Below are positions 15,584 through 32,659 of a DNA stretch of 37,960 bases, one piece after another. Within the stretch, counting starts at the first letter, position 1. Each line of letters begins with the position of its first letter. The notes under the pieces were generated by a model. The model was not told the DNA's origin. It did no database searches and saw nothing but the letters and a program-made list of their open reading frames with translations. A program made the translations under genes and the position numbers. The DNA is from Gammaproteobacteria bacterium (GTDB lineage: Bacteria > Pseudomonadota > Gammaproteobacteria > JAADGQ01): the NCBI GenBank assembly GCA_021648145.1, contig JAKITI010000021.1, positions 1-37,960 of the forward strand, read 5' to 3'.

Positions 15584-15623
15584 GATAAATACCTGGTTAC
15601 CATTAGGGTGAATGCGACATAAA

Positions 15624-15652
15624 TATATTTTACCATACTTTATATATGGCAA
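15624..15652 (-). promoter_or_regulatory. Possible promoter and operator of the AbrB/PIN module
   Basis: On the minus strand a TTGCCA -35 is followed after 17 bases by AATATA, a weak -10. A small inverted repeat CCATA-N7-TATGG (15633-15649) overlaps the -35 and spacer and may bind the antitoxin. Tentative. Confidence 0.35.
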
Positions 15653-15698
15653 GTATTGAGGTATAAAACTCACTGTGGAAAAAAGTGTAATGATTTAA

Positions 15699-17153
15699 TT
15701 AGACGGCATCCTCTTCATCATCAGGTATGTCAGCAGGTTGAGCAATTTCAAAATGTTTGATCATACGTCGTAAGCGAGGTCGGGAAACCCCTAATATTTC
15801 ACAGGTTCGCCCTTTGTGCCAACGAGTCGCTTCGAGCACACGAATGACGTGTATTTTTTCAACCTCCTCCAATGACATTTCACACAATGAGTGGCTAATA
15901 TCTCGATGGTGGTCGATGCTTTGGGGTAAAGAGTCGCTATTACTGATCTCATTGACAAGATCACAGGTGATTGTATTTCCGGGGCAGAGCGCCACCGCTT
16001 TTGCCAATACATTCTCTAACTCCCGAACATTCCCCGGCCAGCTATACTTCTGCATGTTGTCGATCACATCCATAGAGACCTGAGTGACGTTGCGGTGCAT
16101 CTGTTTGTTAATGCGCGCCAGAAGGACTTGAACCAGTTCAGTGATATCCTGTTGCCGTTCTCTCAGTGGTGGTAGCTGGATCGTAACCACATGCAGACGA
16201 TAGAAAAGATCCTCCCGAAAACGACCCTCTTGTACACGTTTTTCTAGGTCAGCATTGGTGGCGGCGATGACACGAGCGTTCGTTTTTTCCGTCGTTTTTC
16301 CGCCGACGGGGGTGAACTCTTTCTCTTGCAGTACACGTAAAAGTTTGGCTTGCATGGTCAGGGAGAGTTCGCTTAATTCATCGAGAAAAATAGAACCGTT
16401 ATTGGCCAGAGCAAACTTTCCTTGTTGCTTGCAGACTGCACCAGTAAAGGAGCCTTTTTCATGACCGAACATCTCGGACTCAAGCAAAGTTTCGACCAGT
16501 GCGGCGCAGTTGATTGCGACAAATGACCCTGTAGAGTTATAACCCACACGGTGAATGGCACGTGCTACCAGCTCTTTTCCTGTGCCACTTTCACCTGTAA
16601 TCAGTACCGTGACCGGATTGTTGGCCACCAGCCCGATCGTTTTAAATACTTCTTTCATTGCTCGGCTACGACCCACCATCGGGTTATTTTTCGCAGTGTT
16701 GCTCTCTTCCTGCTTGTGGGCGGCCAGGACGTTTTTATTGCTTGATGATAGAAGGCGGCCGATGACATCATCCAGCTCATCAATATCAATCGGTTTATGA
16801 ATATAGTCATCCGCTCCGCTTTGCATGGCCTGAATGGTGCTGTCCATATCCTGAAAAGCGGTAATCATAATGACATGAATGCCAGGGATGGCACTTTTAA
16901 ATTCAGGTAAGCCTTCAATGCCTGACCTGCCCGGCATACGAATATCCAGAATGACCAGATGAGGTTGATGTTTGGCGGTGGCTGCCAGCCCTTCATCCAC
17001 ATTGTGTGCCACAGCAACATCGTAACCTTCGCTGCTTAAATGAAGTTGCAGTGTACGGCAGCCAGCCACATCATCATCAACGATGAGTATTTTGTTACGG
17101 TTACGAGGTTGCGGCATCGCGGTAGGGGAGGTTGTCGGATAATTTTCTATCAT
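15699..17153 (-). CDS. NtrC-family sigma-54-dependent response regulator
   Basis: A complete three-domain regulator of 484 residues from ATG 17153. Receiver: ILIVDDDVAG acidic pocket, phospho-acceptor Asp70 in LDIRMPG, and the Lys of HKPID. AAA+ domain: Walker A GESGTGKE, the sigma-54 contact loop as GSFTGA, Walker B SIFLDEL, the R-finger region EGRFREDLFYRL and PLRERQQDI. The C-terminal Fis-type helix-turn-helix is VRVLEATRWHKGRTCEILGVSRPRLRRMI. The 5' end overlaps the kinase gene by about 50 bases. It probably acts at the three sigma-54 promoters in this window through the GAAYG-N3-YGTTC palindromes, which is inferred from gene linkage and shared motifs. Confidence 0.95.
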   Translation of the reverse strand: MIENYPTTSPTAMPQPRNRNKILIVDDDVAGCRTLQLHLSSEGYDVAVAHNVDEGLAATAKHQPHLVILDIRMPGRSGIEGLPEFKSAIPGIHVIMITAFQDMDSTIQAMQSGADDYIHKPIDIDELDDVIGRLLSSSNKNVLAAHKQEESNTAKNNPMVGRSRAMKEVFKTIGLVANNPVTVLITGESGTGKELVARAIHRVGYNSTGSFVAINCAALVETLLESEMFGHEKGSFTGAVCKQQGKFALANNGSIFLDELSELSLTMQAKLLRVLQEKEFTPVGGKTTEKTNARVIAATNADLEKRVQEGRFREDLFYRLHVVTIQLPPLRERQQDITELVQVLLARINKQMHRNVTQVSMDVIDNMQKYSWPGNVRELENVLAKAVALCPGNTITCDLVNEISNSDSLPQSIDHHRDISHSLCEMSLEEVEKIHVIRVLEATRWHKGRTCEILGVSRPRLRRMIKHFEIAQPADIPDDEEDAV

Positions 17154-19752
17154 TATTTTGTTCTCGTATAGGTGCCACTGGCAGGGTAACAGTGGCACAG
17201 GTACCACCACTTTCCGTTGCGGTCAAAGTAATGGTGGCGTGGTGTTGCTCCAATATTCTCTTGACAATCGTCAGCCCCAGGCCAGTACCTTTGGCACGGG
17301 TAGTAAAAAAAGGCTCAAATAGCTGCTCGACTTGTTCAGGTGTCATGCCTCTTCCGTTATCTTCAATATCTATTTGGACTTTAGGCAATGAGTCGATGAC
17401 TTGCAATTTTGCACGGATCAAAATATTGGGTTTATGAGGCAATCCGTCAGTGGATTCCAATGCGTTAGTGATCAGGTTACTGAAGGCTTGCTGAAGCTTG
17501 ATCGGGTCACCGTGCAGTGTAGGAAGCTGGGGTTGGTATTCGGTATGGATATTGGCTCCATGATCACGTACAGAGCGTTCATTGATAGCGATGGCCTGAT
17601 CCAGCACTTTATTTATGTTTAGCCACTCCAGTTTGAGGTCGTCCGGCCGTGAAAACGTCAACATATCTGCCAAAATTTCTTCCATATAGAGTATCTGATC
17701 CAGTGCAATTTGTTTAAGTTCACTGGCTTCTTTGTTGCCTCCTGTCTCGGCTCGCTTACCCAGAATTTTGAGTGACATTTTTATGGAGGAGAGTGGGTTA
17801 CGCAGGTCGTGGGCAATCATGGTGGCCATGCGTCCCATGGCGGCCAGCGTTTGCGCCTGAAGTAGTTCCTGGTTTTGGGTGGCGACTTTATCTGTTAGCC
17901 AGCGACGTTCGGTGATGTCCTCTTTTATGCCTAGATAGTGAGTGATCTCGCCTTGAGCATTACGGATGGGGGAGATCGTCGCTTTTTCCCAGAAAAGTTC
18001 GCCATTTTTTTTTCGGTTGTGAAAAATGCCATGCCACTCTTTGCCTGCGGAGATGGTTTCCCATAATTTTTTATACTCTTCAGGGCGAGTTTCGCCTGAT
18101 TTTAGAATACTGGTATGTTTTCCAATCGCTTCATCAACAGAATAACCAGTCAACTCGGTAAATTTGTGATTGATATATTCGATGGTTCCCATTTTGTTAG
18201 ATATCATAACTGGGTTGGGGCTCTGCTCTACAGCCTGAGATAGTTTGCGTAATTGCTCTTCGGCTTTATGTTGCTGGGTGATGTCTTGGCCGATGGCCGT
18301 GAGCGCTATAATTTTTCCAGCGGGTTGGTAAGAGAGCGTATTGTTCCACGAAATAAGCCGTACTTGACTGTTTTTACAGACAATGCGAGTGGTGGGAGTC
18401 GATAGGTGTGCTTTGCCGGAGATCAATTCATTGAAGAGGCGGCGTGCCCGAGCCTGATCTTCTAAAGGTAAAAAGTGATGAAACCAGTCACGGCCTAATA
18501 CGGAGTCTGTATCGTATCCCGTGATTTTCAAAAAGTATTGGTTACAGTAAACAATTTTCCCCTGATTATTCAAAGTAATTGCAGCCAGTTCGATATTTTC
18601 CAGAGTTTTTCGAAAACGGTGATTGAACGCTGCTTGTTCGCGTTTGATTCGATGCTTGATACTGATCCATGCCAAAATCAGTGAACCGAGTAGAAAAAAG
18701 AGTATGGAAGCTGCATATGGCAGTGTAAGAGTCCCGATAATTTTCTGGGAAATATCCTGTAGTTTGGCGGTGGGGAGGTGAGAGATGATTTTCCAGAAAC
18801 GGGGCTGATTATTGGGCAGATTATATTTCAGAGTGGTGATATATGGATTGGAGCCATTCATGTTTTGGTGAGTGTCGGGTGCAATAATATAAATTGTTGT
18901 GTAGGTATAAAGACCCGAAGAGGTATTGATTCGACCGTTGCTACTGCTGAGAATTTTTTTCCACGCCACGGGCTGTTCTTGAGCAAAAGAGCGTCCACGG
19001 CCAAATATAAAGCCCCAGTCTTTCTCAGGGTATTGACTGTTGAGCCAAAATCCATCGGCATTGACCAGGCTGACATCACCTTCAATATCTCTTGTTGCGC
19101 GCCTGAAATTACGAATCAAACGTTCGCCAAGAAAATTGAATAATAGAACGGCTCGCTTGTTTCCTGCATCATCAAAGAGCGGTGTTGCAAAGCGGATCAT
19201 CGGGCTATAGGGTTGCTCAATTTCATCCTCCTCCACATTGAGGTCGAAAGGCGATATGTAAATTTCACCTTGCTCCAGTGCAGCAGCCTCTTTGATGTAA
19301 TAGCGGTCACTCTTGTTCTGTAATTTTTCATCCGGTACGATCTGTGGAACACCTCGTGCATAGTTAATACGCACGATCTCCTGTCCACTTAAATCGACGA
19401 CTCGGATTTGAGCGTAAAGTCTCTTTTTTTCGCTGAAGTGAAAAAATTCCCGAGCGAGAGCATGACGTGCCTGGTTATTCTCAGGTTCGTTGAGCAGTGT
19501 CTCCAACTCATTGAGCTTTGCCAAAAATGTCAGGTCAGAGATGACACTGTAAAGATCATTGTTGATCACCTCACGTGCACGATCGACATTGAGTGTTTCA
19601 TGTGCCGTTAATTGTATCAGCTCAAATTTAAGGCGAGTCTGATAGTGGGTGAAGGCGGTGAAACTGACTAATAGACAAAGCGGTAAAAAAATAAGAAAAA
19701 ATCGCTTGATAACTGGTTTTCGATACTCATTGGGTGTGAGTGTGACGGGCAT
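17101..19752 (-). CDS. Membrane sensor histidine kinase with periplasmic sensor and two PAS domains
   Basis: An 883-residue hybrid-free kinase. Membrane helices at about residues 17-38 and 340-365 bracket a periplasmic Cache/PDC-like region (GQEIVRINYARG, YYIKEAAALEQGEIYISPFDL, PMIRFATPLFDDAG). Two PAS domains follow: ITLNNQGKIVYCNQYFLKIT and NPVMISNKMGTIEYINHKF, the second with a PAC end, ITHYLGIKEDITER. The HisKA box is MIAHDLRNPLSSIKM with His648. The ATPase has the N box NLITNALEST, DNGRGMTPEQV, FEPFFTTRAKGTGLGL. It starts on the stop codon of the preceding small gene (TAATG). The signal is probably a small periplasmic ligand; the identity is not readable. Confidence 0.94.
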   Translation of the reverse strand: MPVTLTPNEYRKPVIKRFFLIFLPLCLLVSFTAFTHYQTRLKFELIQLTAHETLNVDRAREVINNDLYSVISDLTFLAKLNELETLLNEPENNQARHALAREFFHFSEKKRLYAQIRVVDLSGQEIVRINYARGVPQIVPDEKLQNKSDRYYIKEAAALEQGEIYISPFDLNVEEDEIEQPYSPMIRFATPLFDDAGNKRAVLLFNFLGERLIRNFRRATRDIEGDVSLVNADGFWLNSQYPEKDWGFIFGRGRSFAQEQPVAWKKILSSSNGRINTSSGLYTYTTIYIIAPDTHQNMNGSNPYITTLKYNLPNNQPRFWKIISHLPTAKLQDISQKIIGTLTLPYAASILFFLLGSLILAWISIKHRIKREQAAFNHRFRKTLENIELAAITLNNQGKIVYCNQYFLKITGYDTDSVLGRDWFHHFLPLEDQARARRLFNELISGKAHLSTPTTRIVCKNSQVRLISWNNTLSYQPAGKIIALTAIGQDITQQHKAEEQLRKLSQAVEQSPNPVMISNKMGTIEYINHKFTELTGYSVDEAIGKHTSILKSGETRPEEYKKLWETISAGKEWHGIFHNRKKNGELFWEKATISPIRNAQGEITHYLGIKEDITERRWLTDKVATQNQELLQAQTLAAMGRMATMIAHDLRNPLSSIKMSLKILGKRAETGGNKEASELKQIALDQILYMEEILADMLTFSRPDDLKLEWLNINKVLDQAIAINERSVRDHGANIHTEYQPQLPTLHGDPIKLQQAFSNLITNALESTDGLPHKPNILIRAKLQVIDSLPKVQIDIEDNGRGMTPEQVEQLFEPFFTTRAKGTGLGLTIVKRILEQHHATITLTATESGGTCATVTLPVAPIREQNNDRKLSDNLPYRDAATS

Positions 19753-20087
19753 TATCTGCAGTGCCTCGTGAGCCGTATTTGCACACGCGTCAGGTAGTCA
19801 GCAACGCTTTCTTCGGAGTGGCGCGGAATAATATATATTAATTTGGCTGCGACGAGGTGCTTGAATCTTGAACCATCACCCGCAGGTCTTGGGTTTTGTA
19901 ACACATCTTGCAGATGATCTAATGTCTGTTGTGGTTCAGCGCAGTAGCGGCTCAGCGAGACCTCTTCGGTATACCAGCTTACCCAGAAAGAAATGATTAA
20001 CATCACCAGTAATACGATGGCGACGATGCGTAATGGAAAAAATTTGTTTTCTGCCACGAATTTCCCCTGGAAGATATTAGCAGACAT
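19752..20087 (-). CDS. Small single-span membrane protein of unknown function
   Basis: I do not recognise this 111-residue protein. It has a short cytoplasmic start, one strong membrane helix (LRIVAIVLLVMLIISFWVSW, residues about 20-40) and a mostly polar remainder with two Cys (CAEP and the terminal HCR). It lies between the HemG-like oxidase (14 bases upstream) and the kinase, whose start overlaps its stop. The tight packing suggests a role in sensing or in the cytochrome module. Confidence 0.75.
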   Translation of the reverse strand: MSANIFQGKFVAENKFFPLRIVAIVLLVMLIISFWVSWYTEEVSLSRYCAEPQQTLDHLQDVLQNPRPAGDGSRFKHLVAAKLIYIIPRHSEESVADYLTRVQIRLTRHCR

Positions 20088-20101: not shown

Positions 20102-21553
20102 CTACGGATTTAATGCTTTTTGTATGTTATTGGCTGTGACTCGTTGCCGTTGTCCATGAGGAGTTGAGTTGTGCCGAGTTTTCTTCTGTTCCCGTAATTC
20201 TACCATCTTTTTCACCAACTGCTCTCCTCTGGCAATGCGATCACGTATTGATACGCCGCCTCGATAATTTGCTTCCAGATGAAGGCCTGGGAGTTTTTTT
20301 AGCTGTTTTTCTATTGCGGATAATCGAGCCTGATAAGCGCCATGATAAAGCGGCAACGCTTGTTGGTGGCGGTGAACTGATACCATCTCTGGCTCACCTT
20401 GCAGGTTCAGCAGTGGTCGCAGTGCTTTTATCACTTGCTCCGTCATCTGTTGTTTTGACCATTCAAATGCTTCGGGTTGTCGTGCTCCGCCTAGATAGGT
20501 CGTGAGAAGTGCCTTGCCAACAGGAGCACGGTTGGGAAAAAGGGCGCTCATCCACAGGTTGCCATTAAAGGGAAGTCTTTCAGTTTTTGGCACCAGAAAA
20601 CCAGTGGCATCCAACGCATGGCCAATTTGTGAACGATCAAATCCCATATGGAGAACTGCCAGAGGTGCGTAATTAATTCCTTCCAGCAGCTCTGCCAGCT
20701 CGTTGTTGAGTGGTGCGACAGCGTTTGCGGCGACGGGTGCTGGGGTGCTTAGTACCACTTGCCGTGCTCGGCGCGTCTCTGTGCCCAGCGCTGTATTGGC
20801 AATGATAGACCAGCCTGATTTTCCGTTGGGTATCAGTTCCACCATTCGGTAACCTGTACGTAAATTGATTCCAGGCGTGGCGGCCAATGTCTGTACTAAT
20901 GTTTCCATACCACCGTTAAAAGAGAAAGTTTCGGTGGTGCAGGCAGTGCGGCGGCGTAGCAGTTTGTTGATGAGCACACCCGCAGTAATGCTGCCATAAC
21001 GCTGTTCCAGCCCCGTTAATCTGGGCAGGGTCGCAGCGGCGCTGGCATATTGGGCATCGGCTGCTAAAGTGCCGGCGATAAAAGGCTCCATCGCTTTTTC
21101 CAGCATCTCCAGGCCTAACCTGCGGGTGATAAATTGGCTGACGGTTTCATCTTCATGTTTGCTGGCTGGCATAAAGGGTTCTGCCAGCAGTCGTAATTTT
21201 CCTTTGAGGCTCCAGAGTGGGGAGCTGATCATGCTGCCGAGTTTCATCGGCATGGGTGTGAGCTGGCCGTTATTGAGCAGATAACGGTGTGCTTCTGATT
21301 CTGCTGAGCGATAGCTCTTCTCTTTTTCAAGATCTAATCGACGTACCAGCTCTGAGACTTCAGGTCTAAAGTTAAGCAAAAGTGATGCACTTTGCTCGGT
21401 GAGATAGCCATCTTGTCGTTCACTGCGAATCTTTCCTCCAGCACGTTCCGATGCCTCCCATACTTCAACGGACATTCCAGCTCTTACAGCCCACCAGGCT
21501 GTGGTGAGACCCGATATTCCGCCGCCAATTACAAGGAGATCAACATCATTCAT
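20102..21553 (-). CDS. hemG: FAD-dependent protoporphyrinogen oxidase (HemG/HemY type)
   Basis: A 483-residue flavoprotein with the N-terminal dinucleotide motif VIGGGISGLTTAWWAVRAG, the VEVWEASERAGGKIRSE ribose-binding segment, and the C-terminal GVSIRDRIARGE that resembles the family's FAD-binding end (usually 'GVGVPDCI'). Family members oxidise protoporphyrinogen IX or coproporphyrinogen III during haem synthesis. The gene overlaps the radical SAM gene by 4 bases. Its place among cytochrome genes suggests a dedicated tetrapyrrole step; the exact substrate could instead be another porphyrinogen or a carotenoid-like compound, since this amine-oxidase superfamily is broad. Confidence 0.85.
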   Translation of the reverse strand: MNDVDLLVIGGGISGLTTAWWAVRAGMSVEVWEASERAGGKIRSERQDGYLTEQSASLLLNFRPEVSELVRRLDLEKEKSYRSAESEAHRYLLNNGQLTPMPMKLGSMISSPLWSLKGKLRLLAEPFMPASKHEDETVSQFITRRLGLEMLEKAMEPFIAGTLAADAQYASAAATLPRLTGLEQRYGSITAGVLINKLLRRRTACTTETFSFNGGMETLVQTLAATPGINLRTGYRMVELIPNGKSGWSIIANTALGTETRRARQVVLSTPAPVAANAVAPLNNELAELLEGINYAPLAVLHMGFDRSQIGHALDATGFLVPKTERLPFNGNLWMSALFPNRAPVGKALLTTYLGGARQPEAFEWSKQQMTEQVIKALRPLLNLQGEPEMVSVHRHQQALPLYHGAYQARLSAIEKQLKKLPGLHLEANYRGGVSIRDRIARGEQLVKKMVELREQKKTRHNSTPHGQRQRVTANNIQKALNP

Positions 21554-23592
21554 TTTTTCACCTCTTGCTTCACTTTTTTGCCCGCTTTGAGTTCTGCTTT
21601 CATCTGGTCGATCAGTGATTGCCCCAATAATTCACCAGGATTTTCACGTTCTTCTACAAAATTACGGATGGTGGCAAAACGCTTGTCTGCTTCGCTATTG
21701 TTTTTCAGACGTGGAACTTTTTTACGAGCGATGGCATAAGCATCGAAGTTCAGCTCTTTTAGACCAAACCCTTTCATGCGCTTGACGGCACGCATCATGG
21801 CGCGGTTACGAAAACGAGTCAGATCGCTAGAGCTGATACAGCTTAAATCTTCACGCCTGGCGTTGAATTCAGCGGCTTTTTTGATGCCAGCACGAATGAA
21901 GTCGGGTGCTTGGCTGAGACGTTTTTGCGCTTCATCGCTCCAGGTGACTCCACCCGTAATCGGCTTTATTGCAGCTTCTACGTCCTGAAATTCTACCGTA
22001 GTGACACGCCGTTTTCTTGCGTGTTGCTCTGCCGCACCTTCCATAGCAGGTGTGACAAACAGTTGCACTTCGCGTCGTTTGTCGGCAAGAAAAGAGGCAA
22101 GGTGTTGCTCTGCATCGCTGCTCCAATCGAGTGTGCGACCCGCTTCATCTTCTGCTTCCAGCCGATTCAAAAGCTTGACGTTGACTTCAAGCCGCCCTTC
22201 AGCGCGAGCAACATCTTCGGCCACCTGCTCTACGCCTGAGCGTAAAAAAGTGGGAATATCATTCATTCGTTGTTTTGCTTCTTCAGTCCATGAAAGTGGA
22301 GCGTCGTTGCCAACCGCTTTGGATGTGCTAGGGCGTTTTGGGCCTTTGCCATTAAAACGTTGCGCTGAAAGTGTTGAAAGATGCTCGCCTGTGACTTCCG
22401 TTTCACCACGTTCTCTCACATAACTTTCGGCTCTTTTTTTGACCATTTTTCGCAAAAAACCGGGAACTCGCGTTAATCGTTGAGCCGCTTCGTCCGTCCA
22501 GGTGACATCCTCTTCTTCTTTTTCAACTAATGGCAGAATAGTGGCTCCACCTTGGGGTTGATAGCGACACCAGTTATCGCTGTCCATGATGTCACCGCCC
22601 AGTGCTAGCGGCCTGGCACGGCAGCCACCACAGAGTTTCTGATATTCACACTCACCACACTTTCCCTTGAGTTGTGGATTGCGAAGTTGCTGAAAGCCAG
22701 GGCTGTGTTGCCATGTTTCCCAAAAAGGTGTGGTGCGAATATTGGCCTCTTCATCTGGAATGTAAGGGCAGGCTGTGATGCCACCTTCAGGAGTGACACG
22801 ACAATAGTGCGTGCCCGCAGGACAACCGCCGCCTTCGTAACCTTGCGCCTTTGTCAGGAGTGATTCAGGGTCAATTTGATAGGCGATTCGTTTAAAATGG
22901 GGCGCACAGCGTGCTCGGATAATTAAGTCGCTGACTCTGTTTTGAGCTTCTACCAGTTGTTTGAGAACCTGTTCGTAGGTCTGGGCAGTAATATCTGACA
23001 TTGATTCGCCACGACCGGTGCAGATCAGGAAAAAGATATTCAGTACCTTGGCTCCAGTGCTGCGAGCGAACTGGATCATCTCTTCAATTTCGTGAGCGTT
23101 GGCTTCGGTGACGGAGAAGTGAACTTGAAAAGCGAGGTCTATTTTGCGGCAGGCATCCATTCCGGCCAGTGTTTTTTCCCATGCTCCGGGGCGGCCGCGA
23201 AATGCATCGTGCTGCTCTGGATCAAGAGAATCGACGCTGATTCCCACGCCCATCACACCTGCGGTTTGCAGCTCAAGGGCTCGTTTTTCATTCAACATCA
23301 CGCCATTGGTGCCTACAACAATAGCGAGTCCAGCGGTTGATCCGTGCTGTACGAGTTCGGTCAGATCGCGCCGCAATAATGGTTCGCCGCCGGTGAGTAC
23401 CACCATTGTTTGCTCTGAATGTGTTGCGACCTCATCCAGAAGCCCTTTGACCTCATCGGTGGTTAATTCATCCGCACTACCATGTTTGAGCGCATGCGCA
23501 TCAAGGTAACAGTGATCACAGGCGAGGTTACAACGCCGTGTTAAATTGATTGCAAGTAGAAAAAGATCATTTGTGTCGGTACTGCTCTCCAT
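21550..23592 (-). CDS. Radical SAM/SPASM protein with four C-terminal PCP_red repeats
   Basis: A 680-residue fusion. Residues 1 to about 345 are a radical SAM enzyme with the cluster motif CNLACDHCY, GGEPLLRRDL for SAM, and a SPASM-like auxiliary cluster region (GGCPAGTHYC, CPYIPDE, CGECEYQKLCGGCRARPLA). This resembles the NirJ/AhbD group that modifies haem or sirohaem side chains, though peptide-modifying relatives look similar. From Trp365 onward there are four repeats beginning W(T/S)xEA...RL..(V/I)P.F(L/I)R (Trp365, 435, 490, 551), the PCP_red domain pattern known from the C-terminus of protochlorophyllide reductase BchB/ChlB; the third is degenerate. Such a fusion suggests tetrapyrrole binding. 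It overlaps the HemG-like gene by ATGA. Confidence 0.88.
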   Translation of the reverse strand: MESSTDTNDLFLLAINLTRRCNLACDHCYLDAHALKHGSADELTTDEVKGLLDEVATHSEQTMVVLTGGEPLLRRDLTELVQHGSTAGLAIVVGTNGVMLNEKRALELQTAGVMGVGISVDSLDPEQHDAFRGRPGAWEKTLAGMDACRKIDLAFQVHFSVTEANAHEIEEMIQFARSTGAKVLNIFFLICTGRGESMSDITAQTYEQVLKQLVEAQNRVSDLIIRARCAPHFKRIAYQIDPESLLTKAQGYEGGGCPAGTHYCRVTPEGGITACPYIPDEEANIRTTPFWETWQHSPGFQQLRNPQLKGKCGECEYQKLCGGCRARPLALGGDIMDSDNWCRYQPQGGATILPLVEKEEEDVTWTDEAAQRLTRVPGFLRKMVKKRAESYVRERGETEVTGEHLSTLSAQRFNGKGPKRPSTSKAVGNDAPLSWTEEAKQRMNDIPTFLRSGVEQVAEDVARAEGRLEVNVKLLNRLEAEDEAGRTLDWSSDAEQHLASFLADKRREVQLFVTPAMEGAAEQHARKRRVTTVEFQDVEAAIKPITGGVTWSDEAQKRLSQAPDFIRAGIKKAAEFNARREDLSCISSSDLTRFRNRAMMRAVKRMKGFGLKELNFDAYAIARKKVPRLKNNSEADKRFATIRNFVEERENPGELLGQSLIDQMKAELKAGKKVKQEVKK

Positions 23593-23609
23593 AATCTAAT
23601 TTTCCTACC

Positions 23610-25736
23610 TTATTTTTTATACATCTTTGGATCAGATTCCGAGTGGAAAATACCTTTTTCTTTCCAGTGAGCAGTGGCTTTGTCAAGAATCTCTTCCGTG
23701 ACGGTCGTTATGCCATTCTGCGCCGCACACTGCTCAGTCTCTTTGATTACCATGCCGCGTACAAAGTCAGGGATTTTTTCGATGCGCTGTGCGGCGTGTT
23801 CATCCCACTGCATTTTCATCTGTTGCTTGGCTGAGCCTGCATTCCACTCGGCATATTTTTCATCAATAAGCTGTGGGGTGATGCCATCGATTTTATGGCG
23901 GGTCGCAAATGCTTCAATTCGTTGACGTGTGAGATCACGCATAAAACCGACAGGCACTTTACTCATACGTGCTTCAGCGGCGGCGCTCCAAGTGATATTT
24001 GAAGGGGCGGTGCGGGCGCGTGCAGAGCGGTCATCAGAATCAATCGAGCCTGATTCCATTGAATTCATCGCCTTTCGAGCTTGTTTGAGCCCTTGCTCTG
24101 CGACTGTAAGTGTGATTTCGTTAATATCATTTTGCTTGGCATACTGCTCTATACGATCTTTTGATGTATTACGCATAAAGCCTTCAGGAACGCGTGCTAA
24201 TCGTGCTAAAGCGGCAGCTTGCCAAGTAATTTCTAAATTATCACTGGGTTCACTAGATAGCAGTTTGCTCATAAAGGGTTCAATATCAGCTTTTTTGACT
24301 CGGTTTCTGCCTTGTGACCGTGCCTTTTTTTCAGCTCGCATGCTGAGGTTGCCGCGCAATGCCAGTTCATCGACTGTTTTTAATAGTGCTGTGGCATCAT
24401 CGTCCCAACGCATGACTTCGTTATTGGTGGCTCGACGTTTCAAATCACCCGCATCGTGTGCACAAACGATCTCTTCCATCGCTTGCTCTGCATGATCGGG
24501 CATCAATTCGGCAGTAGCTTCTTCCACGATACGTTCGGTGATAATCGTGTGGCCTTTCTCCTGGGCATAACGCAGGATGGCCATGCGTGCCATGGGGCGC
24601 ACAAAGGAAGGAACACGCTCCATGCGACGCTCAGCTTCAATGCTCCATGATGTGGTGACTGATGCAAGACGATCCACTTCCGGCTGATGCTGACGCTGAC
24701 TGAGCAGCACGGCACATTCGGCATCATGCAGCAGGTACTCGCTGTTGCCGCCGATGTCGAGTTCAGCATCAGCATGCACGCCTGTTTTTCCTAGAATGAG
24801 CAGTGATGGTTTGACCTTTTTCAGGTACTTCATGATGACATCGTGCGGTTTGCCATCAAGCAATACAGTTTCAATCTTCATGTCGTGATCAGCGGCGATT
24901 GATTCAGCGACTTTGAGATGACCTTGGTAAATCTTTGCGAGGCCGGAATCAATGATATCTTCGTGCAGTTTTTCTTGCTCCTTGAACTTGAATACTTTAC
25001 CCGCCTCTTCAGATAGCACACCAGCGATTCGATTGAATGCAACGTAGTGATAGTAAGGGTCAAAAGCAGCGACGACTTTGACTTCAACATTCCATTGCCG
25101 TGCCAGCGACAGGGCAGTAAGCAGGCCGCCATAACTGCGTGACGATCCATCGACTCCTACAACGATAGGGCCTTTGTTGATGGATTGCTCTGGGTCTTTG
25201 ATAATAAGGGTGTCAATATCTGAGCGACGCGCAACTCTTTGACAAACAGTTCCGAGGCGGTTGCCATGAACCGCCCCAAGACCCGCTCCTCCCATAACAA
25301 GCAATTCGTAACTACTCTTTTTGTTATTACATTCACGCACCAGTTCGCGGTAGTTTTTGCCTTCTAAAGGGCGGCGTTTGAATTCGATATTTGCATCTGC
25401 ACAATCACGTTCTACCTGATCAAGGTAGGAGTCGGTAATGATGGATAGGCCGCGTGTGATGAGGTCGTCATGCACATCGCGTTGCCGTTCCAGTTCGTCT
25501 TCCATGCGAAATTCTTCTGGCAGGCCACCTTCCATCTGCTTGAAGCGAATGTCGTGAAGTTTGGCGGCATAAACGTGAGTGGCGGTGATTTTACTGTTAA
25601 AGAAACTCGCCAGTTCGAGTGCTTCCTGACGGGCTTTATTGCTATGGTCGGATGAATCTACGGCCACTAAAATGGAGTTATAGCCTGGTAGTGGGGCAGT
25701 CTCTTCCTGCTTTGTTTCTAACGCATGAGCTGTCAT
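23610..25736 (-). CDS. Tandem universal stress protein with five PCP_red repeats
   Basis: A 708-residue protein. Two UspA-type domains come first: NSILVAVDSSDHSNKARQEA (near 20) and GPIVVGVDGSSRSYGGLLTA (near 190). The first ends in LLVMGGAGLGAVHGNRLG, a Usp ATP-binding-like GxGx(9)G region; the second has LLILGKTGVHADAELDIGGNSE. From about residue 365 five PCP_red-like repeats follow (WSIEAERRMERVPSFVRPM; WDDDATALLKTV, divergent; WQAAALARLARVP; WSAAAEARMSKVP; WDEHAAQRIEKIPDFVRGM). The gene lies 17 bases upstream of the radical SAM gene with related repeats. Together they suggest a shared tetrapyrrole- or partner-binding scaffold. The function of Usp-PCP_red fusions is not known to me. Confidence 0.88.
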   Translation of the reverse strand: MTAHALETKQEETAPLPGYNSILVAVDSSDHSNKARQEALELASFFNSKITATHVYAAKLHDIRFKQMEGGLPEEFRMEDELERQRDVHDDLITRGLSIITDSYLDQVERDCADANIEFKRRPLEGKNYRELVRECNNKKSSYELLVMGGAGLGAVHGNRLGTVCQRVARRSDIDTLIIKDPEQSINKGPIVVGVDGSSRSYGGLLTALSLARQWNVEVKVVAAFDPYYHYVAFNRIAGVLSEEAGKVFKFKEQEKLHEDIIDSGLAKIYQGHLKVAESIAADHDMKIETVLLDGKPHDVIMKYLKKVKPSLLILGKTGVHADAELDIGGNSEYLLHDAECAVLLSQRQHQPEVDRLASVTTSWSIEAERRMERVPSFVRPMARMAILRYAQEKGHTIITERIVEEATAELMPDHAEQAMEEIVCAHDAGDLKRRATNNEVMRWDDDATALLKTVDELALRGNLSMRAEKKARSQGRNRVKKADIEPFMSKLLSSEPSDNLEITWQAAALARLARVPEGFMRNTSKDRIEQYAKQNDINEITLTVAEQGLKQARKAMNSMESGSIDSDDRSARARTAPSNITWSAAAEARMSKVPVGFMRDLTRQRIEAFATRHKIDGITPQLIDEKYAEWNAGSAKQQMKMQWDEHAAQRIEKIPDFVRGMVIKETEQCAAQNGITTVTEEILDKATAHWKEKGIFHSESDPKMYKK

Positions 25737-25869: not shown

Positions 25870-25992
25870 TTAATGCATCAACCAATTCACCACAATGACT
25901 GCAACCACAATCATGTTGATGCTGAAACCAACCATTGCAATATAGTCAAAAGCGGTGAAACGGTAGCGAAAATCCTCTGGAGAGCGATTCAT
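25870..25992 (-). CDS. 40-residue single-span membrane peptide
   Basis: A short gene coding for a charged N-terminus (MNRSPEDFRYRFTAFDY) and one hydrophobic helix (VGFSINMIVVAVIVVNW). The ATG overlaps the stop of the upstream gene by one base (TAATG), which strongly supports translation by coupling. It resembles small helper subunits of membrane oxidase complexes such as CydX or CcoQ in size and form only; no homology is claimed. It is followed by the inverted-repeat mini-element. Confidence 0.65.
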   Translation of the reverse strand: MNRSPEDFRYRFTAFDYIAMVGFSINMIVVAVIVVNWLMH

Positions 25993-26729
25993 TATTTGCC
26001 TTTATATGCAAAATCAACGCTCTCTTTACCACCGGCACTGATCTCAACTTTTCCTTTCTTTTCACCCAGTGTGCCGTGCCATGCCCGAATCTTATATTTT
26101 CCCGCTGGAATGTTATCAATGGTGTAGCTGCCATCGGGCTTGACGACTGCGTAATAGGGGTTTTTGGCGACAAAGGTAAAACCATGCATGAAGTCATGAG
26201 CATCACACTCTAATTTCATTGAAGTGCCACGTTTCAGTTTTATTGTTTTGTCCAAGGTTTTCAGGTCTGAAGGCTGGCTGATGTTAAAGACTGTTTTTCT
26301 TACTTTGCCAATCAGCTCGTAGGTGTGAATGTTGTGCAGTACTGGGTCAGAGTTATTTATGGTCAGTTTGTCACCATTTTTCATGACACCCAGAAAAGGG
26401 CTGAACTCACATTTTTTTTGATTAAGCACTGGATTTTCAAGTTCAGCTTTGAACGCTTTACCTTCCTTGACTTTGGCTAGGTAGACAACGGTGTCATTGA
26501 GCGCACCGTTGTTAACTTTTACAAAGTCGATCAGCCGTTCGCCTGTTCCGCAAGTATCGCTATCTTTGGCTATGGGGTAACTATTGGCGACGGGATCTTT
26601 GCCACTAAAAGAGACTTTACCACTGACGCTGCCGCCATTAGCCACATCAACAACTTTATAAGCTGCATGTGCACTTAATGGTAAGGCTGCCGCAGTGATG
26701 AGTGAAAGTGCTATGACTGATTTTTTCAT
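25992..26729 (-). CDS. Periplasmic cupredoxin/carboxypeptidase-regulatory-like protein
   Basis: A 245-residue exported protein from ATG 26729. The ATG at 26738 is adjacent to the AGAGGA site and too close. The signal peptide is SVIALSLITAAALPLSAHAA. The first part has GGSVSGKVSFSGKD and cysteines at CGTG and KKCEF. The middle has a plastocyanin-like region (NGDKLTINNSDPVLHNIHTY, then MKLECDAHDFMHGF) with His, Cys, His and Met in positions that could bind copper or haem. The end has a CPR/transthyretin-like fold (VVKPDGSYTIDNIPAGKYKIRAWHG). Such proteins accompany methylamine-dehydrogenase-like and cytochrome clusters. I infer a periplasmic electron carrier or complex subunit. Confidence 0.8.
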   Translation of the reverse strand: MKKSVIALSLITAAALPLSAHAAYKVVDVANGGSVSGKVSFSGKDPVANSYPIAKDSDTCGTGERLIDFVKVNNGALNDTVVYLAKVKEGKAFKAELENPVLNQKKCEFSPFLGVMKNGDKLTINNSDPVLHNIHTYELIGKVRKTVFNISQPSDLKTLDKTIKLKRGTSMKLECDAHDFMHGFTFVAKNPYYAVVKPDGSYTIDNIPAGKYKIRAWHGTLGEKKGKVEISAGGKESVDFAYKGK

Positions 26730-26767
26730 TTTTATCATTCCTCTTATTAATTTTGAATCAATATTTT

Positions 26768-29113
26768 TCAGGCTGCTGGTTTTAAGACTCCTTCCAGCAT
26801 CTCGATGGTGAAACGGCGTTCAAGGCTGTTTTTTGATTCATTGAGCTGCTTTAAAAGCCTGGCTTCTGCCAACTCTGAATCAAGTCGTCGCAAGGCGCTT
26901 CCCATACCCTCCGCATCGCCTCCTGTGCTGGTAAGACCCACCTGAATAATGCGCTCTACCACATTTTGGCGATATTGGTGGTCACCAATATTCTGCCCTA
27001 GACCAGCAACTGCCTGAGCCGCATTGCGACGAACGATGGGGTGCTCGTCATCCAGTCTTTCAAGCAGTGCTTCAACGACTGTTTCGTAATTGATGTGATC
27101 AACGGGTGAGGTTTGTTCGCGCATTGGGATTTTATTGGCTTGCAGCAGCTGAACCAGTGAATCAATGATTTGAGAGCGCAGCATGGGCGCTTCATCGTTC
27201 AGCTTTTCAAGCAAAGAAGGGGTCGCATTTTGGTTGGCCATGATACCCAGTGCTTTGGCACTGACGATCTGTAGCGGGGGTTCACCAAAATAGAGGCGGT
27301 GTGTGATCGGCCCCATAGCATTTGCTAGGCCTGCGGTCTCAGGTGCTGTCATGGCAATGCGGGTAAGAGAGTCGATGGCATCAATCTGTACATCAGTGGA
27401 TTCATTTTGCAGCGCATCCAGCAGAGCGTAGACCACTTCGGGTCGGGCGCATTCGCCAAGAATACGCGCACTGAGTGAGCGTACGTCTGTTTTGATATCC
27501 AGTATTTTTGGTTTGCAAAGTGTCTTGAATTTTTCACGATCACTCTCTACCAGGTGCAAATATTCGTCGAGTCTTGATGCATCTTCAACATCGGGCAGTG
27601 ATTCAGGGGTGGGTAGATCGCCTGTGTCTGCACGGCTGGTTTTCTGTTGAATGGCTGCTTCCTCGCCCTCCATGATAATGGCATCCAGAGTGGAGGTAAT
27701 GATGGGAGTCTCTTCTGCTTTTTCTTCTTCGACTAACTCTTCAATGATACCTTGTGGCTCTTCGTCTGAAATTTCTTCGCTCTCTATTTTTTCGTCGTCA
27801 CCGAGTTTAATCTCTCCTCGAAGTGCAGCGATCACAATGGCAAGAGAGGCTGGTATCTGCTCTGATATACTGGAGGCATTACGAGCCAGCTCCATTAAAG
27901 CACTCAAGGCTGAAAGACGAACGACTTGATCGCTGTCAGCCAGTGATTTTGTCAGGTTTGCGAGTACCAGAGCGCTTTCTTCATTACGTTTTCCCAGAGC
28001 GAGCGCTGCTTCCCGGCGCACCATAGGCTCTTGATGATGATCCATCAGTACCACCACAAGCGCTTGTTCTGTTTTAGGGTCTTTCAAGTTTCCGGCCAGC
28101 TTGCATGCTGCCGAGGCAACTTCGATGTGAGGCTCTACGACTCTTTTCAGGAGGATCTCTTGCAGAGTTTTGCTATTCAGATCGCTGATCGGCAGTAGAT
28201 CAGAAGCGACTCCCAGTGCTGTTGCGCGTACTAATGGATCGTTATCATTGATCAGCTCCAGCAAAGTATCTGGTTCTATGGCTGATTTGCTAGAGATGTC
28301 ATGATCACTGCCTAATCGGGACATGGCCATCATTACCGACTGACGTACACTATTGGATGAGTCTTTCAGCATCAGCAAGAGCGCTGCCACAGGGGCTCCA
28401 CTCTTGTGCTGTGCCAATGCTTCGACAGCACTGCTACGTACTGAGTCATCAGAATCTTTCAGTGCTTCTAATAGAGCGGTTGAGCTTTCTGGTGATGTGG
28501 AACTCGCAAGTGCTTTTACAGCACGGCGGCGCTGACGTGGTTTACCGCTTATCAATTGATCAATCACGGCTGTTTCACCTGCGCCACCGATAGTGATAAG
28601 CGCAGTGAACAGTTCATCTTCAATATCCTGGCTAATTTCATCTTCATCTTTAAGGAGTGTCACCAGCGTAGGAACAGCTTCGGCAATTTTCATTTTCCCC
28701 AGCGCTTTCACCGCTTCGCGTTGCATATCCCACCAGCAATCCCAATCACCTTCATCATCCCATTCGAGGTTTTCAGGTTTTGCCAGAGCTATCTCTATCA
28801 GGTGGGGCGCAACTTCGGTATTGCCGATGCTGCCCAGAGCCGTGACCACTGCGGTTTTGACATCACCATCGGGATCGTTAGTCAGGGAGTCGATGAGTGG
28901 TTCAATGGCGCTGGAATCAGCCAGTTGTCCGAGTGCGTTGATGGCATCTAGGCAGACATCAATATCTTCATCGCGCAGCCTTTCAACCAGATCAGAGACA
29001 ACGGATGAATTCCCCAGTATCCCCAGCGTGCGGCACGAACAACAGCGATCCAGTTCATCTCCGGTATTTAAAAGGTTGCGTATGGCGGTCACTGTTTTTG
29101 AACTGCTTGTCAT
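26768..29113 (-). CDS. HEAT-repeat protein, first gene of the minus-strand operon
   Basis: A 781-residue protein with many HEAT/PBS-lyase-type repeats, each about 31-33 residues (for example VVSDLVERLRDEDIDVCLDAINALGQL, SSNSVRQSVMMAMSRLG, EPMVRREAALALGKR). Repeats fill residues about 1-430 and 520-740. They are separated by an acidic linker (EKIESEEISDEEPQG and following) predicted to be disordered. There is no signal peptide, so it is probably cytoplasmic. It starts with a CCSC motif near residue 23. HEAT proteins are scaffolds, and relatives act in phycobilin lyases, so a role in cofactor attachment or complex assembly is possible. Its sigma-54 promoter is at 29161-29175. Confidence 0.9.
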   Translation of the reverse strand: MTSSSKTVTAIRNLLNTGDELDRCCSCRTLGILGNSSVVSDLVERLRDEDIDVCLDAINALGQLADSSAIEPLIDSLTNDPDGDVKTAVVTALGSIGNTEVAPHLIEIALAKPENLEWDDEGDWDCWWDMQREAVKALGKMKIAEAVPTLVTLLKDEDEISQDIEDELFTALITIGGAGETAVIDQLISGKPRQRRRAVKALASSTSPESSTALLEALKDSDDSVRSSAVEALAQHKSGAPVAALLLMLKDSSNSVRQSVMMAMSRLGSDHDISSKSAIEPDTLLELINDNDPLVRATALGVASDLLPISDLNSKTLQEILLKRVVEPHIEVASAACKLAGNLKDPKTEQALVVVLMDHHQEPMVRREAALALGKRNEESALVLANLTKSLADSDQVVRLSALSALMELARNASSISEQIPASLAIVIAALRGEIKLGDDEKIESEEISDEEPQGIIEELVEEEKAEETPIITSTLDAIIMEGEEAAIQQKTSRADTGDLPTPESLPDVEDASRLDEYLHLVESDREKFKTLCKPKILDIKTDVRSLSARILGECARPEVVYALLDALQNESTDVQIDAIDSLTRIAMTAPETAGLANAMGPITHRLYFGEPPLQIVSAKALGIMANQNATPSLLEKLNDEAPMLRSQIIDSLVQLLQANKIPMREQTSPVDHINYETVVEALLERLDDEHPIVRRNAAQAVAGLGQNIGDHQYRQNVVERIIQVGLTSTGGDAEGMGSALRRLDSELAEARLLKQLNESKNSLERRFTIEMLEGVLKPAA

Positions 29114-29160: not shown

Positions 29161-29175
29161 GCATGTAATGTGCCA
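29161..29175 (-). promoter_or_regulatory. Sigma-54 promoter of the minus-strand (HEAT to regulator) operon
   Basis: The minus strand reads TGGCAC-ATTAC-ATGC with exact -24/-12 spacing. It has the same single departure (ATGC for TTGC) as the porin promoter. It is 48-62 bases before the HEAT gene start. Confidence 0.75.
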
Positions 29176-29548: not shown

Positions 29549-29564
29549 TGGCATAGGTGTTGCT
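29549..29564 (+). promoter_or_regulatory. Sigma-54 promoter of the cytochrome operon
   Basis: TGGCAT-AGGTG-TTGCT fits the sigma-54 consensus TGGCAC-N5-TTGCW with only the sixth base different. Transcription would begin near 29575, about 46 bases before the first small gene. It is the best -24/-12 match in the window. Confidence 0.8.
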
Positions 29565-29940: not shown

Positions 29941-29960
29941 AATAGGCCTTGGAGTATTTT

Positions 29961-31820
29961 ATGAAAAGAGGACTGTTCAGACCGGCTATCGTAGCCCCTT
30001 TTCTCCTGCTACTGATGGCGGCACTGACGCTCGGTGCGTTTAGTGGTGTGGATGGTGGTCATAGTGTAATCAGTGATTTGCATGTAGCTGAGGCAACAGA
30101 GAGCGGTATCGCTGAAACCGAACTTAAAGCCGCACCTAAACTGGGGGCTGGAGATTATCCAGATATCGGTGCCAGTAGTCGCTCCATCGTTTGGGTATTG
30201 GCTCAAATGCATCTCTATTTTGGGGCATTGGTGCTGTCGGTACCGCTATTTGTTCTTGTGATTGAGTTGATGGGCGTGAAAACCGGCGATGCTCGTTATG
30301 ATGACATGGCGCACGAGTTCATGAAAATCTGCATCACGGCCTACTCGATTACGGCACTTTTTGGCGGGTCACTGTCACTGGCGCTGTTTCTGCTCTATCC
30401 CGACTTTATGGCCTACATGATGAGGGTGTTCGGGGCGCAGATGATGGTCTATGCCATACTTTTTTTCATGGAAAGTGCGGTGCTTTACATCTATTACTAC
30501 GGCTGGAATGCACTCCGCTACGGCAATGCTAAATGGGTTCACCTTTCGCTCGGATTACTGCTCAATGGTGTCGGTTTGACGCTGATGGTGGTCGCCAATT
30601 CATGGGCGACATTTATGATGGCACCTTCAGGAGTGAATGAAGTGGGTGCGGTGATCGGCAATATCTGGGAAGTCATGAAAGGACCGCTGTGGAATCCGAT
30701 TAACTTACACCGATTTATTGCCAATATTGCTTTTGGTGGCGCAGTGGTGGGGGCTTATGCGGCTTATAAATGTCTGGCTGCTCGCACGGCAGAGGAGAAA
30801 GCGCATTATGACTGGATGGGCTACACCTCTAATTTTATTGCGGTACTGGCATTTCTGCCCTTGCCGTTCGCGGGCTACTGGTTGATGGCTGAAATATATG
30901 CCTATTCTCAGCAGATGGGAATTACTGCGATGGGCGGTATTCTCGCTTGGTTGTTTATTGTGCAGGCGGTGTTGATCGGTACGATTTTACTGGCGGCAAA
31001 CTATTATCTTTGGTCGGGCATGTCGCGCAACGCGGGGGCTGATCGCTACAAAGGTGCGATTAAATATATTGCTATTGTTATCACCGCCTGTTTTCTTATC
31101 TGGGTAACTCCCCATACACTGATTTTGACTTCAGCAGAGTCGGCGGCACTGGGTGGCAGTCACCACGGTATCTTGGGGCCGCTGGGTATTATGCCAGCGA
31201 AGAATGTGGCGGTGAATTTGATGTTGATTTTCACCTTTCTCTCTTTTCAGCTCTATAACCGCTCGAATAAAGAGTTCACCGTTCCATGGGTGAACACGGG
31301 TAATGCCATTATGGTCGCCATCTACGTTGTGGCTGTGGTGAATATCATTTTTGTCGGTGTCTATTACGGTTACTTTTCTAATACCGTTTATAAAGTGGGT
31401 TCCAGTGTGATTCAGGTTGCTTCGACGCTGGTGGTGATTATCGCCGGTGTGGTGATTGATGCCATGATGTCGAAGGGCGCGAAGAAAACACCATCGCGTT
31501 GGGGGCAGGTGAGTGATCGCTCACAATATGCACTCTTTGCGTTGCCTATTGCCTTTACTTGGCTGATGGCATTGATGGGTTATGTGCGCTCTTCAGTACG
31601 CACCCATTGGCACGTTTACACCGTGATGAAAGATGGTTCGCCAGATAATTACATTCCTACTATTGGCTATGCAGGCAATATGATTACGATTACCACAGTG
31701 CTCTTTGTATTGCTGGTGCTCTTTGTTTTCTGGATTGCATCGCTCAGTGGGCAGCGCCAGATACCGCCGATTCAGCTGTCACCCACAACAAAGACCGTGC
31801 GTGAAGGGGGTGGAGTGTGA
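29961..31820 (+). CDS. CydA-like cytochrome bd-family membrane subunit (divergent, no CydB)
   Basis: A 619-residue protein with about 13-14 membrane helices, starting at ATG 29961 behind a GGAG site. The N-terminal half follows CydA: His84 (AQMHLYFGALVLSVPLFVLVIE) matches the haem ligand His19 of E. coli CydA, and FFMES with Glu171 matches FFLES. After NP, the equivalent of His186 (FVHTV) is replaced (HRFIANIAF), with His250 three residues earlier. The quinol-loop signature GWxxxExGRQPW is not seen; the comparable place reads GYWLMAEIYAYSQQMG. No CydB is encoded, while cytochromes c follow. These traits recall the non-quinol branches of the bd superfamily, so electrons may come from cytochrome c. 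Oxygen reduction is not proven; NO or another oxidant is possible. Confidence 0.85.
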   Translation: MKRGLFRPAIVAPFLLLLMAALTLGAFSGVDGGHSVISDLHVAEATESGIAETELKAAPKLGAGDYPDIGASSRSIVWVLAQMHLYFGALVLSVPLFVLVIELMGVKTGDARYDDMAHEFMKICITAYSITALFGGSLSLALFLLYPDFMAYMMRVFGAQMMVYAILFFMESAVLYIYYYGWNALRYGNAKWVHLSLGLLLNGVGLTLMVVANSWATFMMAPSGVNEVGAVIGNIWEVMKGPLWNPINLHRFIANIAFGGAVVGAYAAYKCLAARTAEEKAHYDWMGYTSNFIAVLAFLPLPFAGYWLMAEIYAYSQQMGITAMGGILAWLFIVQAVLIGTILLAANYYLWSGMSRNAGADRYKGAIKYIAIVITACFLIWVTPHTLILTSAESAALGGSHHGILGPLGIMPAKNVAVNLMLIFTFLSFQLYNRSNKEFTVPWVNTGNAIMVAIYVVAVVNIIFVGVYYGYFSNTVYKVGSSVIQVASTLVVIIAGVVIDAMMSKGAKKTPSRWGQVSDRSQYALFALPIAFTWLMALMGYVRSSVRTHWHVYTVMKDGSPDNYIPTIGYAGNMITITTVLFVLLVLFVFWIASLSGQRQIPPIQLSPTTKTVREGGGV

Positions 31821-32659
31821 GTGATCCTACGGAGCATAAAACTGCGAGTTCAGGTTCGGTCTTGGTAAAAACGATGGGCTTTAGCCTGTTTCTGATTATA
31901 GTCTTCACTCTGTTTACTAATCTGTTGCCACAGGTTGAAGGGGAAGCGCCGGTCGATAAAGAGGTGGATATCGGGGCTTTGACGATGGAGTCATTTGTCG
32001 AGCTGGGAGAAGAGCTGTTCCACGGCAAGGGAACATGTTCGCTTTGTCATAACGACCTGGGGCGTGCGCCCGATATTCTGGTGCTTGATATGACGGCAAC
32101 GTCCAAAAAGCATTTAGCCGATGAGCGTTATGAGGGAACGGCGACCGATGATGGCTCTTATCTTCTCGAATCATTGGTGAACCCTGGCATCTATGTCGTG
32201 GCTGGTTTTGGTAAAAAAGGCAGCAACGATACGGAATCCCAAATGCCTGCGGTAGATAAAGCGCCCATTGAACTTACAGCACTTGAAATGGATGCCGTGA
32301 TCGCTTTTATGCAGGCGAAGGATGGCAATGATGTGACGGTATCACTGCCGAGTGAAGCGCCCGCAGCTTCCACGACCGCTGAGGCATCACCCAAAGCCGC
32401 GCAGTCGGCGGAAGAGGTTATTGCCAAACTGGGTTGCGCGGCATGTCATTCGTTAGAAGGTTCTGATGTATTGTTGGGTCCTTCACTACAGGGCATAGGC
32501 AGTCGCTTGAGTGTTGAAGAGATCAGGCAAAGCATTATTGACCCTGAAGCCGTCATACCCGATGGGTTTGAAGGCGGCATGATGCCCGCCACTTTTGCTG
32601 AGCAGGTGACGGCTAAAGAGATGGAAATGATGGTTCAATTTTTAGCGAAGCAGAAATGA
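31817..32659 (+). CDS. Membrane-anchored dihaem cytochrome c
   Basis: A 280-residue protein starting with GTG 31817, overlapping the CydA-like stop by 4 bases. One N-terminal membrane helix (MGFSLFLIIVFTLFTNLLP) anchors it. Two class I cytochrome c domains follow: CSLCH at residues 74-78 and CAACH at 207-211, joined by an Ala/Ser/Pro-rich linker (about 180-200). Candidate Met ligands lie in SQMPAVD after the first and GGMMPATF after the second. It should face the periplasm and pass electrons between the triheme subunit and the membrane cytochrome. The direction is not determined by sequence. Confidence 0.93.
   Translation: MSDPTEHKTASSGSVLVKTMGFSLFLIIVFTLFTNLLPQVEGEAPVDKEVDIGALTMESFVELGEELFHGKGTCSLCHNDLGRAPDILVLDMTATSKKHLADERYEGTATDDGSYLLESLVNPGIYVVAGFGKKGSNDTESQMPAVDKAPIELTALEMDAVIAFMQAKDGNDVTVSLPSEAPAASTTAEASPKAAQSAEEVIAKLGCAACHSLEGSDVLLGPSLQGIGSRLSVEEIRQSIIDPEAVIPDGFEGGMMPATFAEQVTAKEMEMMVQFLAKQK

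Follow-up and report, generated by a model that had tools for sequence, protein, structure and literature searches.

Two adjacent genes in a contig of a gammaproteobacterium (JAKITI010000021.1, assembly GCA_021648145.1; the whole stretch of 37,960 nucleotides is referred to here as the window) encode proteins that together carry nine copies of PCP_red, a small helical domain familiar chiefly from the dark synthesis of chlorophyll. Four copies follow a radical SAM (rSAM)/SPASM enzyme (rSAM-PCP), and five follow two universal stress protein (Usp) domains (Usp-PCP). With the next gene, which encodes a HemY-type oxidase, they make up a gene set that is conserved across several phyla and apparently undescribed so far. 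The set almost always occurs in genomes encoding a CydA-like, noncanonical cytochrome bd-like membrane protein, which suggests that it serves the building or delivery of the haem cofactor of that protein. We see an even chance that the three products form a dedicated tetrapyrrole maturation and delivery module for the CydA-like complex, in which the PCP_red repeats would be binding or docking units. The genes and domains of the set in the window are as follows.

23610..25736 (-): Usp-PCP protein, 708 amino acids; two Usp domains, then five PCP_red repeats
25197..25682 (-): Usp domain 1, residues 19-180; ATP motif G149-x2-G152-x9-G162-T163, read from the sequence
24699..25172 (-): Usp domain 2, residues ~189-346; motif G316-x2-G319-x9-G329, then G instead of S/T, read from the sequence
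24504..24647 (-): PCP_red repeat U1, residues 364-411; 62.5 bits
24258..24407 (-): PCP_red repeat U2, residues 444-493, degenerate; 22.6 bits, family profile
24051..24224 (-): PCP_red repeat U3, residues 505-562; 51.6 bits
23829..23990 (-): PCP_red repeat U4, residues 583-636; 55.2 bits
23655..23807 (-): PCP_red repeat U5, residues 644-694; 59.1 bits
21550..23592 (-): rSAM-PCP protein, 680 amino acids; radical SAM/SPASM, then PCP_red repeats R1-R4, then a conserved helical tail
23065..23550 (-): radical SAM core, residues 15-176; Cx3Cx2C = C21/C25/C28
22558..22824 (-): SPASM region, residues 257-345; seven invariant Cys (257, 275, 312, 315, 321, 324, 342)
22357..22500 (-): PCP_red repeat R1, residues 365-412; 69.0 bits
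22150..22290 (-): PCP_red repeat R2, residues 435-481; 44.0 bits
21955..22125 (-): PCP_red repeat R3, residues 490-546, degenerate; sequence score 4.5 bits, recognised by its modelled fold
21769..21942 (-): PCP_red repeat R4, residues 551-608; 43.3 bits
21553..21768 (-): conserved helical tail of rSAM-PCP, residues 609-680
20102..21553 (-): HemY-type protoporphyrinogen oxidase, 483 amino acids; overlaps the rSAM-PCP stop

Detection and fold of the PCP_red repeats

The first-pass annotation of this DNA had counted four repeats behind the radical SAM/SPASM domain and five behind the two Usp domains; profile searches and AlphaFold models bear out this count, and the boundaries it gave coincide exactly with the two open reading frames (ORFs). 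In the search it had proposed, with the Pfam profile PF08369, both ORFs scored far above the cut-off of 32.5 bits (rSAM-PCP, 124.2 bits; Usp-PCP, 170.1 bits). Seven individual repeats exceeded this cut-off, and no other PCP_red copy was found in the 2.66-Mb genome. The other two were detected differently, U2 solely by a family profile and R3 solely by its predicted fold. A profile retrained on relatives gave five matches in Usp-PCP and three clear matches in rSAM-PCP, with the scores listed above, and the score of R3 with this profile was not significant. In the AlphaFold models of the two proteins (mean pLDDT, the predicted local distance difference test score, 86 and 84), five and four units were recognised, all with a strand-helix-helix-strand-helix pattern. 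Because the R3 remnant has the same modelled fold pattern as the other repeats, we count nine copies, two of them degenerate. The identity between orthologous repeat positions in 19 five-repeat proteins was 40-67%, and that between positions within one protein 13-33%; judged by their sequences, the repeat positions are old and distinct.

An independent hidden Markov model (HMM) was trained on 18 C-termini from phototroph loci alone, taken as subunit B of dark-operative protochlorophyllide reductase (DPOR). With this model, Usp-PCP scored 65.3 bits and rSAM-PCP 36.1 bits; the best domain in 1000 shuffled sequences reached 3.2 bits, which rules out a generic helical coincidence. This HMM and solved chains (2KRU, 2XDQ, 2YNM and 3AEK) place the repeats in the same family as the C-terminal domain of DPOR subunit B (BchB/ChlB). 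However, DPOR subunit B has one PCP_red copy after a nitrogenase-like domain, whereas the window proteins have four or five after rSAM or Usp. No Oxidored_nitro domain was found in them, and Usp-PCP scored 103.7 bits against the DPOR subunit B equivalog cut-off of 509; a DPOR remnant is ruled out by the lack of this domain and of further PCP_red copies in the genome. The annotation's view of PCP_red as a domain of the DPOR subunit B terminus was too narrow, since the stand-alone protein Asr4154 (2L09) has been solved; that protein carries the same domain outside DPOR, but as a single small domain without repeats or fused enzymes. Literature searches on the domain family returned nothing relevant, and no publication describing the Usp-PCP/rSAM-PCP/HemY module was found in a literature coverage that was incomplete.

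Enzymes of the gene set

Among 41 rSAM sequences of the module, C21, C25, C28 and the seven SPASM cysteines are invariant. The Pfam SPASM match in the window protein falls under its cut-off, and a structure search with its model pointed to a fold like that of PqqE (6C8V). NirJ2 and AhbD were the families with the best E-values, matched by 41/41 module rSAMs. The window protein shares the radical SAM plus SPASM arrangement with these two best-scoring curated families; unlike them, it has additional C-terminal PCP_red repeats and scores well below their equivalog cut-offs (304.7 bits against 500 for TIGR04545, AhbD heme b synthase; 312.3 against 500 for TIGR04055, NirJ2). By these scores it is a relative of AhbD and NirJ2, not a member of either family.

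The origin of its repeat array could be traced in part. Residues 363-669 and a four-repeat protein that stands alone in a Nitrospirota genome align end to end (37% over 316 amino acids), and R1-R4 together with the helical tail match such stand-alone proteins throughout. In addition, 63 of 72 rSAMs of relatives carry just one PCP_red repeat, and at locus L108 the four-repeat protein (39% to the window array) has an ORF of its own, which overlaps the end of an rSAM with one repeat. From the end-to-end alignment and the one-repeat relatives, the window protein is best read as an rSAM-PCP fused with a formerly separate four-repeat partner, fission being the reverse option. The high PCP_red copy number of the window would partly reflect this fusion, and the occurrence of the two parts as one protein here and as adjacent genes at L108 hints that they act together.

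The HemY-type protein matched TIGR00562, the family of HemY/CgoX protoporphyrinogen oxidases (PPOs), over its full length with 240.5 bits (equivalog cut-off 97.85), and 22/22 HemY-like relatives matched this family. It has an Amino_oxidase fold, and its best solved relative is 2IVD; the earlier description of this neighbour as HemG-like is therefore corrected to HemY-type, distinct from the HemG of Escherichia coli. From its family, the protein is predicted to oxidise a porphyrinogen. It is the sole HemY over the cut-off in the genome, which also encodes HemJ on contig C9 (151.8 bits). Because HemJ is present elsewhere, the module HemY is an extra enzyme rather than a housekeeping one; unlike a plain HemY/CgoX, it coexists with HemJ and is tied to the PCP_red module. 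At five Nitrospirota loci (L098, L100, L101, L102 and L104), a conserved CopD-like membrane protein of ~170 amino acids is encoded in the HemY position. HemJ was considered as a Nitrospirota substitute for HemY and rejected, the downstream membrane protein being merely CopD-like and under the Pfam cut-off.

In Usp-PCP, Pfam recognised two PF00582 stretches and a structure search a tandem Usp fold. The ATP motif G-2x-G-9x-G-(S/T) is complete in domain 1 and ends in G in domain 2. Foldseek searches with the full models of Usp-PCP and rSAM-PCP gave, among the matches listed, only rSAM- or Usp-type domains and unrelated transporters.

Conservation of the gene set and its association with a CydA-like protein

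A genome scan yielded 80 named loci; many contigs are cut, so that gene counts are minima. The module loci span Gamma-, Beta-, Alpha- and Zetaproteobacteria, Nitrospirota, Nitrospinota, Planctomycetota, Chloroflexota and Desulfuromonadales/Deltaproteobacteria. The rSAM gene was present in 71 loci, Usp in 61, HemY in 51, a histidine kinase in 24 and a response regulator in 23, and Usp lay directly upstream of rSAM-PCP in 56/71 loci. A CydA-like gene was present in 15 of the 28 loci that span 20.5 kb or more; of the rest, 4 contained an ethylbenzene-dehydrogenase-type (EB_dh) cytochrome, 3 a cluster of iodate-reductase-like genes, 1 an NXR/Nar-like enzyme and 5 none of these. Plasmid searches did not find the module. 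The partner genes and regulatory elements of the window are listed below.

29949..31820 (+): CydA-like membrane protein of the noncanonical cytochrome bd-like type; accompanies the module more consistently than any other partner
31817..32659 (+): cytochrome c, two CxxCH motifs
32682..35096 (+): fusion of a cytochrome c and an EB_dh (periplasmic haem b) domain
29161-29175 (-) and 29549-29563 (+): one-mismatch sigma-54-like sites in the divergent HEAT/CydA-like intergenic region
17101..19752 (-): PAS-domain sensor histidine kinase
15699..17210 (-): sigma-54-dependent response regulator

The first-pass annotation had also proposed that co-occurrence with the CydA-like gene be checked across genomes, and the association proved very strong. 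First, the CydA-like profile matched 4/299 Pseudomonadota genomes, and all four encode PCP_red repeats on Usp proteins, rSAM proteins or both; G037, one of the four, has its CydA-like and Usp-PCP genes on different contigs. In the other 295, most PCP_red matches look like DPOR subunit B and G076 has a stand-alone copy; the only possible modules are those of G227 (at a contig end) and G010 (weak, in a Usp-like protein). Second, among 198 Nitrospirota genomes, PCP_red was present in 84/84 CydA-positive and 24/114 CydA-negative genomes (Fisher p 5e-34, not phylogeny-corrected). Third, a CydA-like gene was found elsewhere in 32/34 module genomes, a sample in which nearly all had been picked because the retrieved flanking sequence contained no CydA-like gene (L116, an exception, did have one close by).

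The profile match of the CydA-like protein to solved CydA, subunit I of cytochrome bd, is confined to the N-terminal part. Its H88, E175 and H254 are invariant among 14 sequences and align with the positions of His19, Glu99 and His186 of E. coli CydA, the haem ligands of cytochrome bd. The protein does not belong to a canonical cytochrome bd, since no CydB was found among the scanned window genes and the next genes encode cytochromes c. Upstream of the CydA-like gene, one-mismatch -24/-12 sites were present in 6/10 loci (5/9 relatives and the window), against an expectation of 0.035 per region in mononucleotide shuffles. Over the whole window, sigma-54 consensus sites with up to two mismatches occurred at the chance level, so only the intergenic sites were weighed; together with the regulator genes of the window, these sites would fit co-regulation.

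Noncanonical cytochrome bd-like proteins, which remain poorly characterised, are candidates for the terminal oxidase in nitrite-oxidising Nitrospira and in manganese-oxidising bacteria (PMC8115632, PMC9040806). The TO_1 or cytochrome bd-like clusters of Nitrospirota described in these two reports resemble the window in combining a CydA-like protein with a periplasmic cytochrome b, but the available parts of the reports do not mention a Usp-PCP/rSAM-PCP/HemY maturation module. A module that tracks bd-like proteins and includes two tetrapyrrole-type enzymes offers a testable handle on their making.

Other respiratory genes also lie beside the module. At six Rhodobacteraceae-type loci (L081, L083, L089, L093, L094 and L099), it adjoins iodate-reductase-like genes, encoding a Rieske_3/molybdopterin large subunit, a Rieske small subunit and di-haem peroxidases, as well as HEAT and cupredoxin-like genes. 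At L103, L106, L112 and L096, it adjoins NXR/Nar-like genes of the type II dimethyl sulphoxide (DMSO) reductase family, some with Tat-like starts. Both sets were considered as the defining partner and rejected, because most genomes with either set also carry the CydA-like gene.

PCP_red in other contexts

Multiple PCP_red copies are common elsewhere: many Nitrospirota have ~12 per genome, distributed over several proteins (for example, G299, G380 and G520). In CydA-negative Nitrospirota, PCP_red is fused to a putative chlorite-dismutase/coproheme-decarboxylase-like domain (L145:5036-6061 (+) and L144:2634-3638 (-)). Other proteins combine a cysteine-rich, zinc-ribbon-like start with one or two PCP_red copies and are encoded beside Mrp/NUBPL genes (L142:4795-5526 (+), L143:17459-18217 (-) and L148:3029-3424 (-)). 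Tetrapyrrole contexts of PCP_red are prominent, and iron-sulphur contexts are also present.

Proposed role and alternative explanations

In the proposed maturation and delivery module, the HemY-like enzyme would oxidise a porphyrinogen, and the (iron) porphyrin that results would have side chains altered by the AhbD/NirJ2-related radical SAM enzyme. Both the rSAM and its Usp partner carry PCP_red repeats, which would act as serial binding or docking units, keeping the partners and perhaps the intermediate in one place for delivery to the CydA-like protein. We infer the substrate, the product, the physical complex, the contact of PCP_red with porphyrin and the delivery step. The proposal draws on the HemY-type and AhbD/NirJ2-type enzymes, the presence of HemJ elsewhere, the co-occurrence with the CydA-like gene and the conserved gene order. 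In addition, a Desulfuromonadales locus in which no HemY was recognised has, next after rSAM-PCP, a gene that scored 493.5 bits with the AhbD heme b synthase profile (cut-off 500). The aligned haem-ligand positions of the CydA-like protein, the coproheme-decarboxylase-like fusion, the four-repeat protein that is either fused or adjacent, and the -24/-12 sites, which suit the sigma-54 regulator whose gene accompanies the module, point in the same direction.

Several observations weigh against this role. No conserved His or Cys is common to all repeats in their alignment. The gene for a stand-alone PCP_red protein of 58 amino acids (L042:15926-16102 (-)) appears to share an operon with those for a Nitro_FeMo-Co protein and an AAA ATPase, and small PCP_red proteins adjoin genes for Mrp/NUBPL-type iron-transfer NTPases. 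The module rSAM falls below every equivalog cut-off, some loci have no adjacent HemY (the five with the CopD-like gene among them), and in G303 and G321 the module is present and a CydA-like gene was not detected. The genome co-occurrence, which is not corrected for phylogeny, could reflect a common lifestyle, and the EB_dh cytochrome, as a frequent companion of the CydA-like gene, could be the real client. The first-pass annotation had placed a tetrapyrrole-handling module outside photosynthesis here, which is supported by the enzyme families, the extra HemY, the coproheme-decarboxylase-like fusion and the CydA-like link. Its suggestion that the repeats themselves hold a haem precursor is not supported, given the iron-sulphur contexts and the missing common ligand, which also speak against a purely tetrapyrrole reading. 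In view of these, PCP_red is better termed a cofactor-maturation unit than a proven haem holder, which broadens the domain from a detail of photosynthesis to a recurrent unit of this kind.

In a rather unlikely alternative, PCP_red is a docking domain of metallocofactor assembly that makes no contact with tetrapyrroles; its repeats would join Usp and rSAM in a scaffold on which a metallocentre, iron-sulphur or other, is assembled for the complex of the CydA-like protein and cytochrome c. The copies beside Nitro_FeMo-Co and Mrp/NUBPL genes and the lack of a shared haem ligand speak for it, as do the repeat positions conserved as distinct units, which separate docking surfaces would lead one to expect, and an rSAM and four-repeat protein that occur fused or separate. 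However, the HemY-type PPO and the AhbD/NirJ2-type rSAM are tetrapyrrole-type enzymes, and PCP_red is itself fused to a coproheme-decarboxylase-like domain. A bolder form of the tetrapyrrole proposal, that the module, with its AhbD/NirJ2-type radical SAM enzyme and HemY, makes an undescribed modified iron tetrapyrrole on the PCP_red scaffold as the cofactor of noncanonical bd-like oxidases in Nitrospira, manganese oxidisers and comparable bacteria, we consider quite unlikely.

It is improbable that the module is regulatory, with Usp-PCP sensing low oxygen or the energy state and controlling the CydA-like cluster through the histidine kinase and sigma-54 regulator, and with rSAM and HemY as incidental neighbours. 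Such a role would suit the Usp domains, the complete ATP motif of domain 1 and the location of both regulator genes in the same run of genes. In a published proteome of N. marina, several UspA proteins, which may or may not be Usp-PCP proteins, were up at low O2 beside operons that were also up (PMC8115632). But the catalytic and SPASM cysteines of the rSAM are invariant, so that enzyme activity has been kept, and the two regulators are far less frequent among the loci than Usp and rSAM, which persist. Finally, the chance location here of ordinary haem b biosynthesis genes would accommodate a HemY above the PPO cut-off, but it is highly improbable, because the genome has HemJ elsewhere and the module goes with the CydA-like gene and is not a general feature.

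Neighbouring genes and other observations

Three further genes lie close to the module in the window.

19752..20087 (-): protein of 111 amino acids, no family assigned; present in 12/80 loci
25992..26738 (-): secreted-type protein with a cupredoxin-like motif, H135/C178/H181/M184; often adjoins the module
26768..29113 (-): HEAT-repeat protein; often adjoins the module

The secreted-type protein matches no Pfam family; its H135, C178, H181 and M184 are invariant among 20 sequences, and it is probably a cupredoxin-like copper protein. No 16S rRNA gene was found in the genome of the window. PIN-domain toxin-like genes are located at 14964-15673, with a MazE-like antitoxin gene, and at 35314-35691, where the partner was not identified. 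A match to a group II intron domain (RF00029) at 53-127 scored 41.1 bits, barely above the gathering score of 40, and a Cas3-type HD-domain protein is encoded at the contig end (36945-37916).

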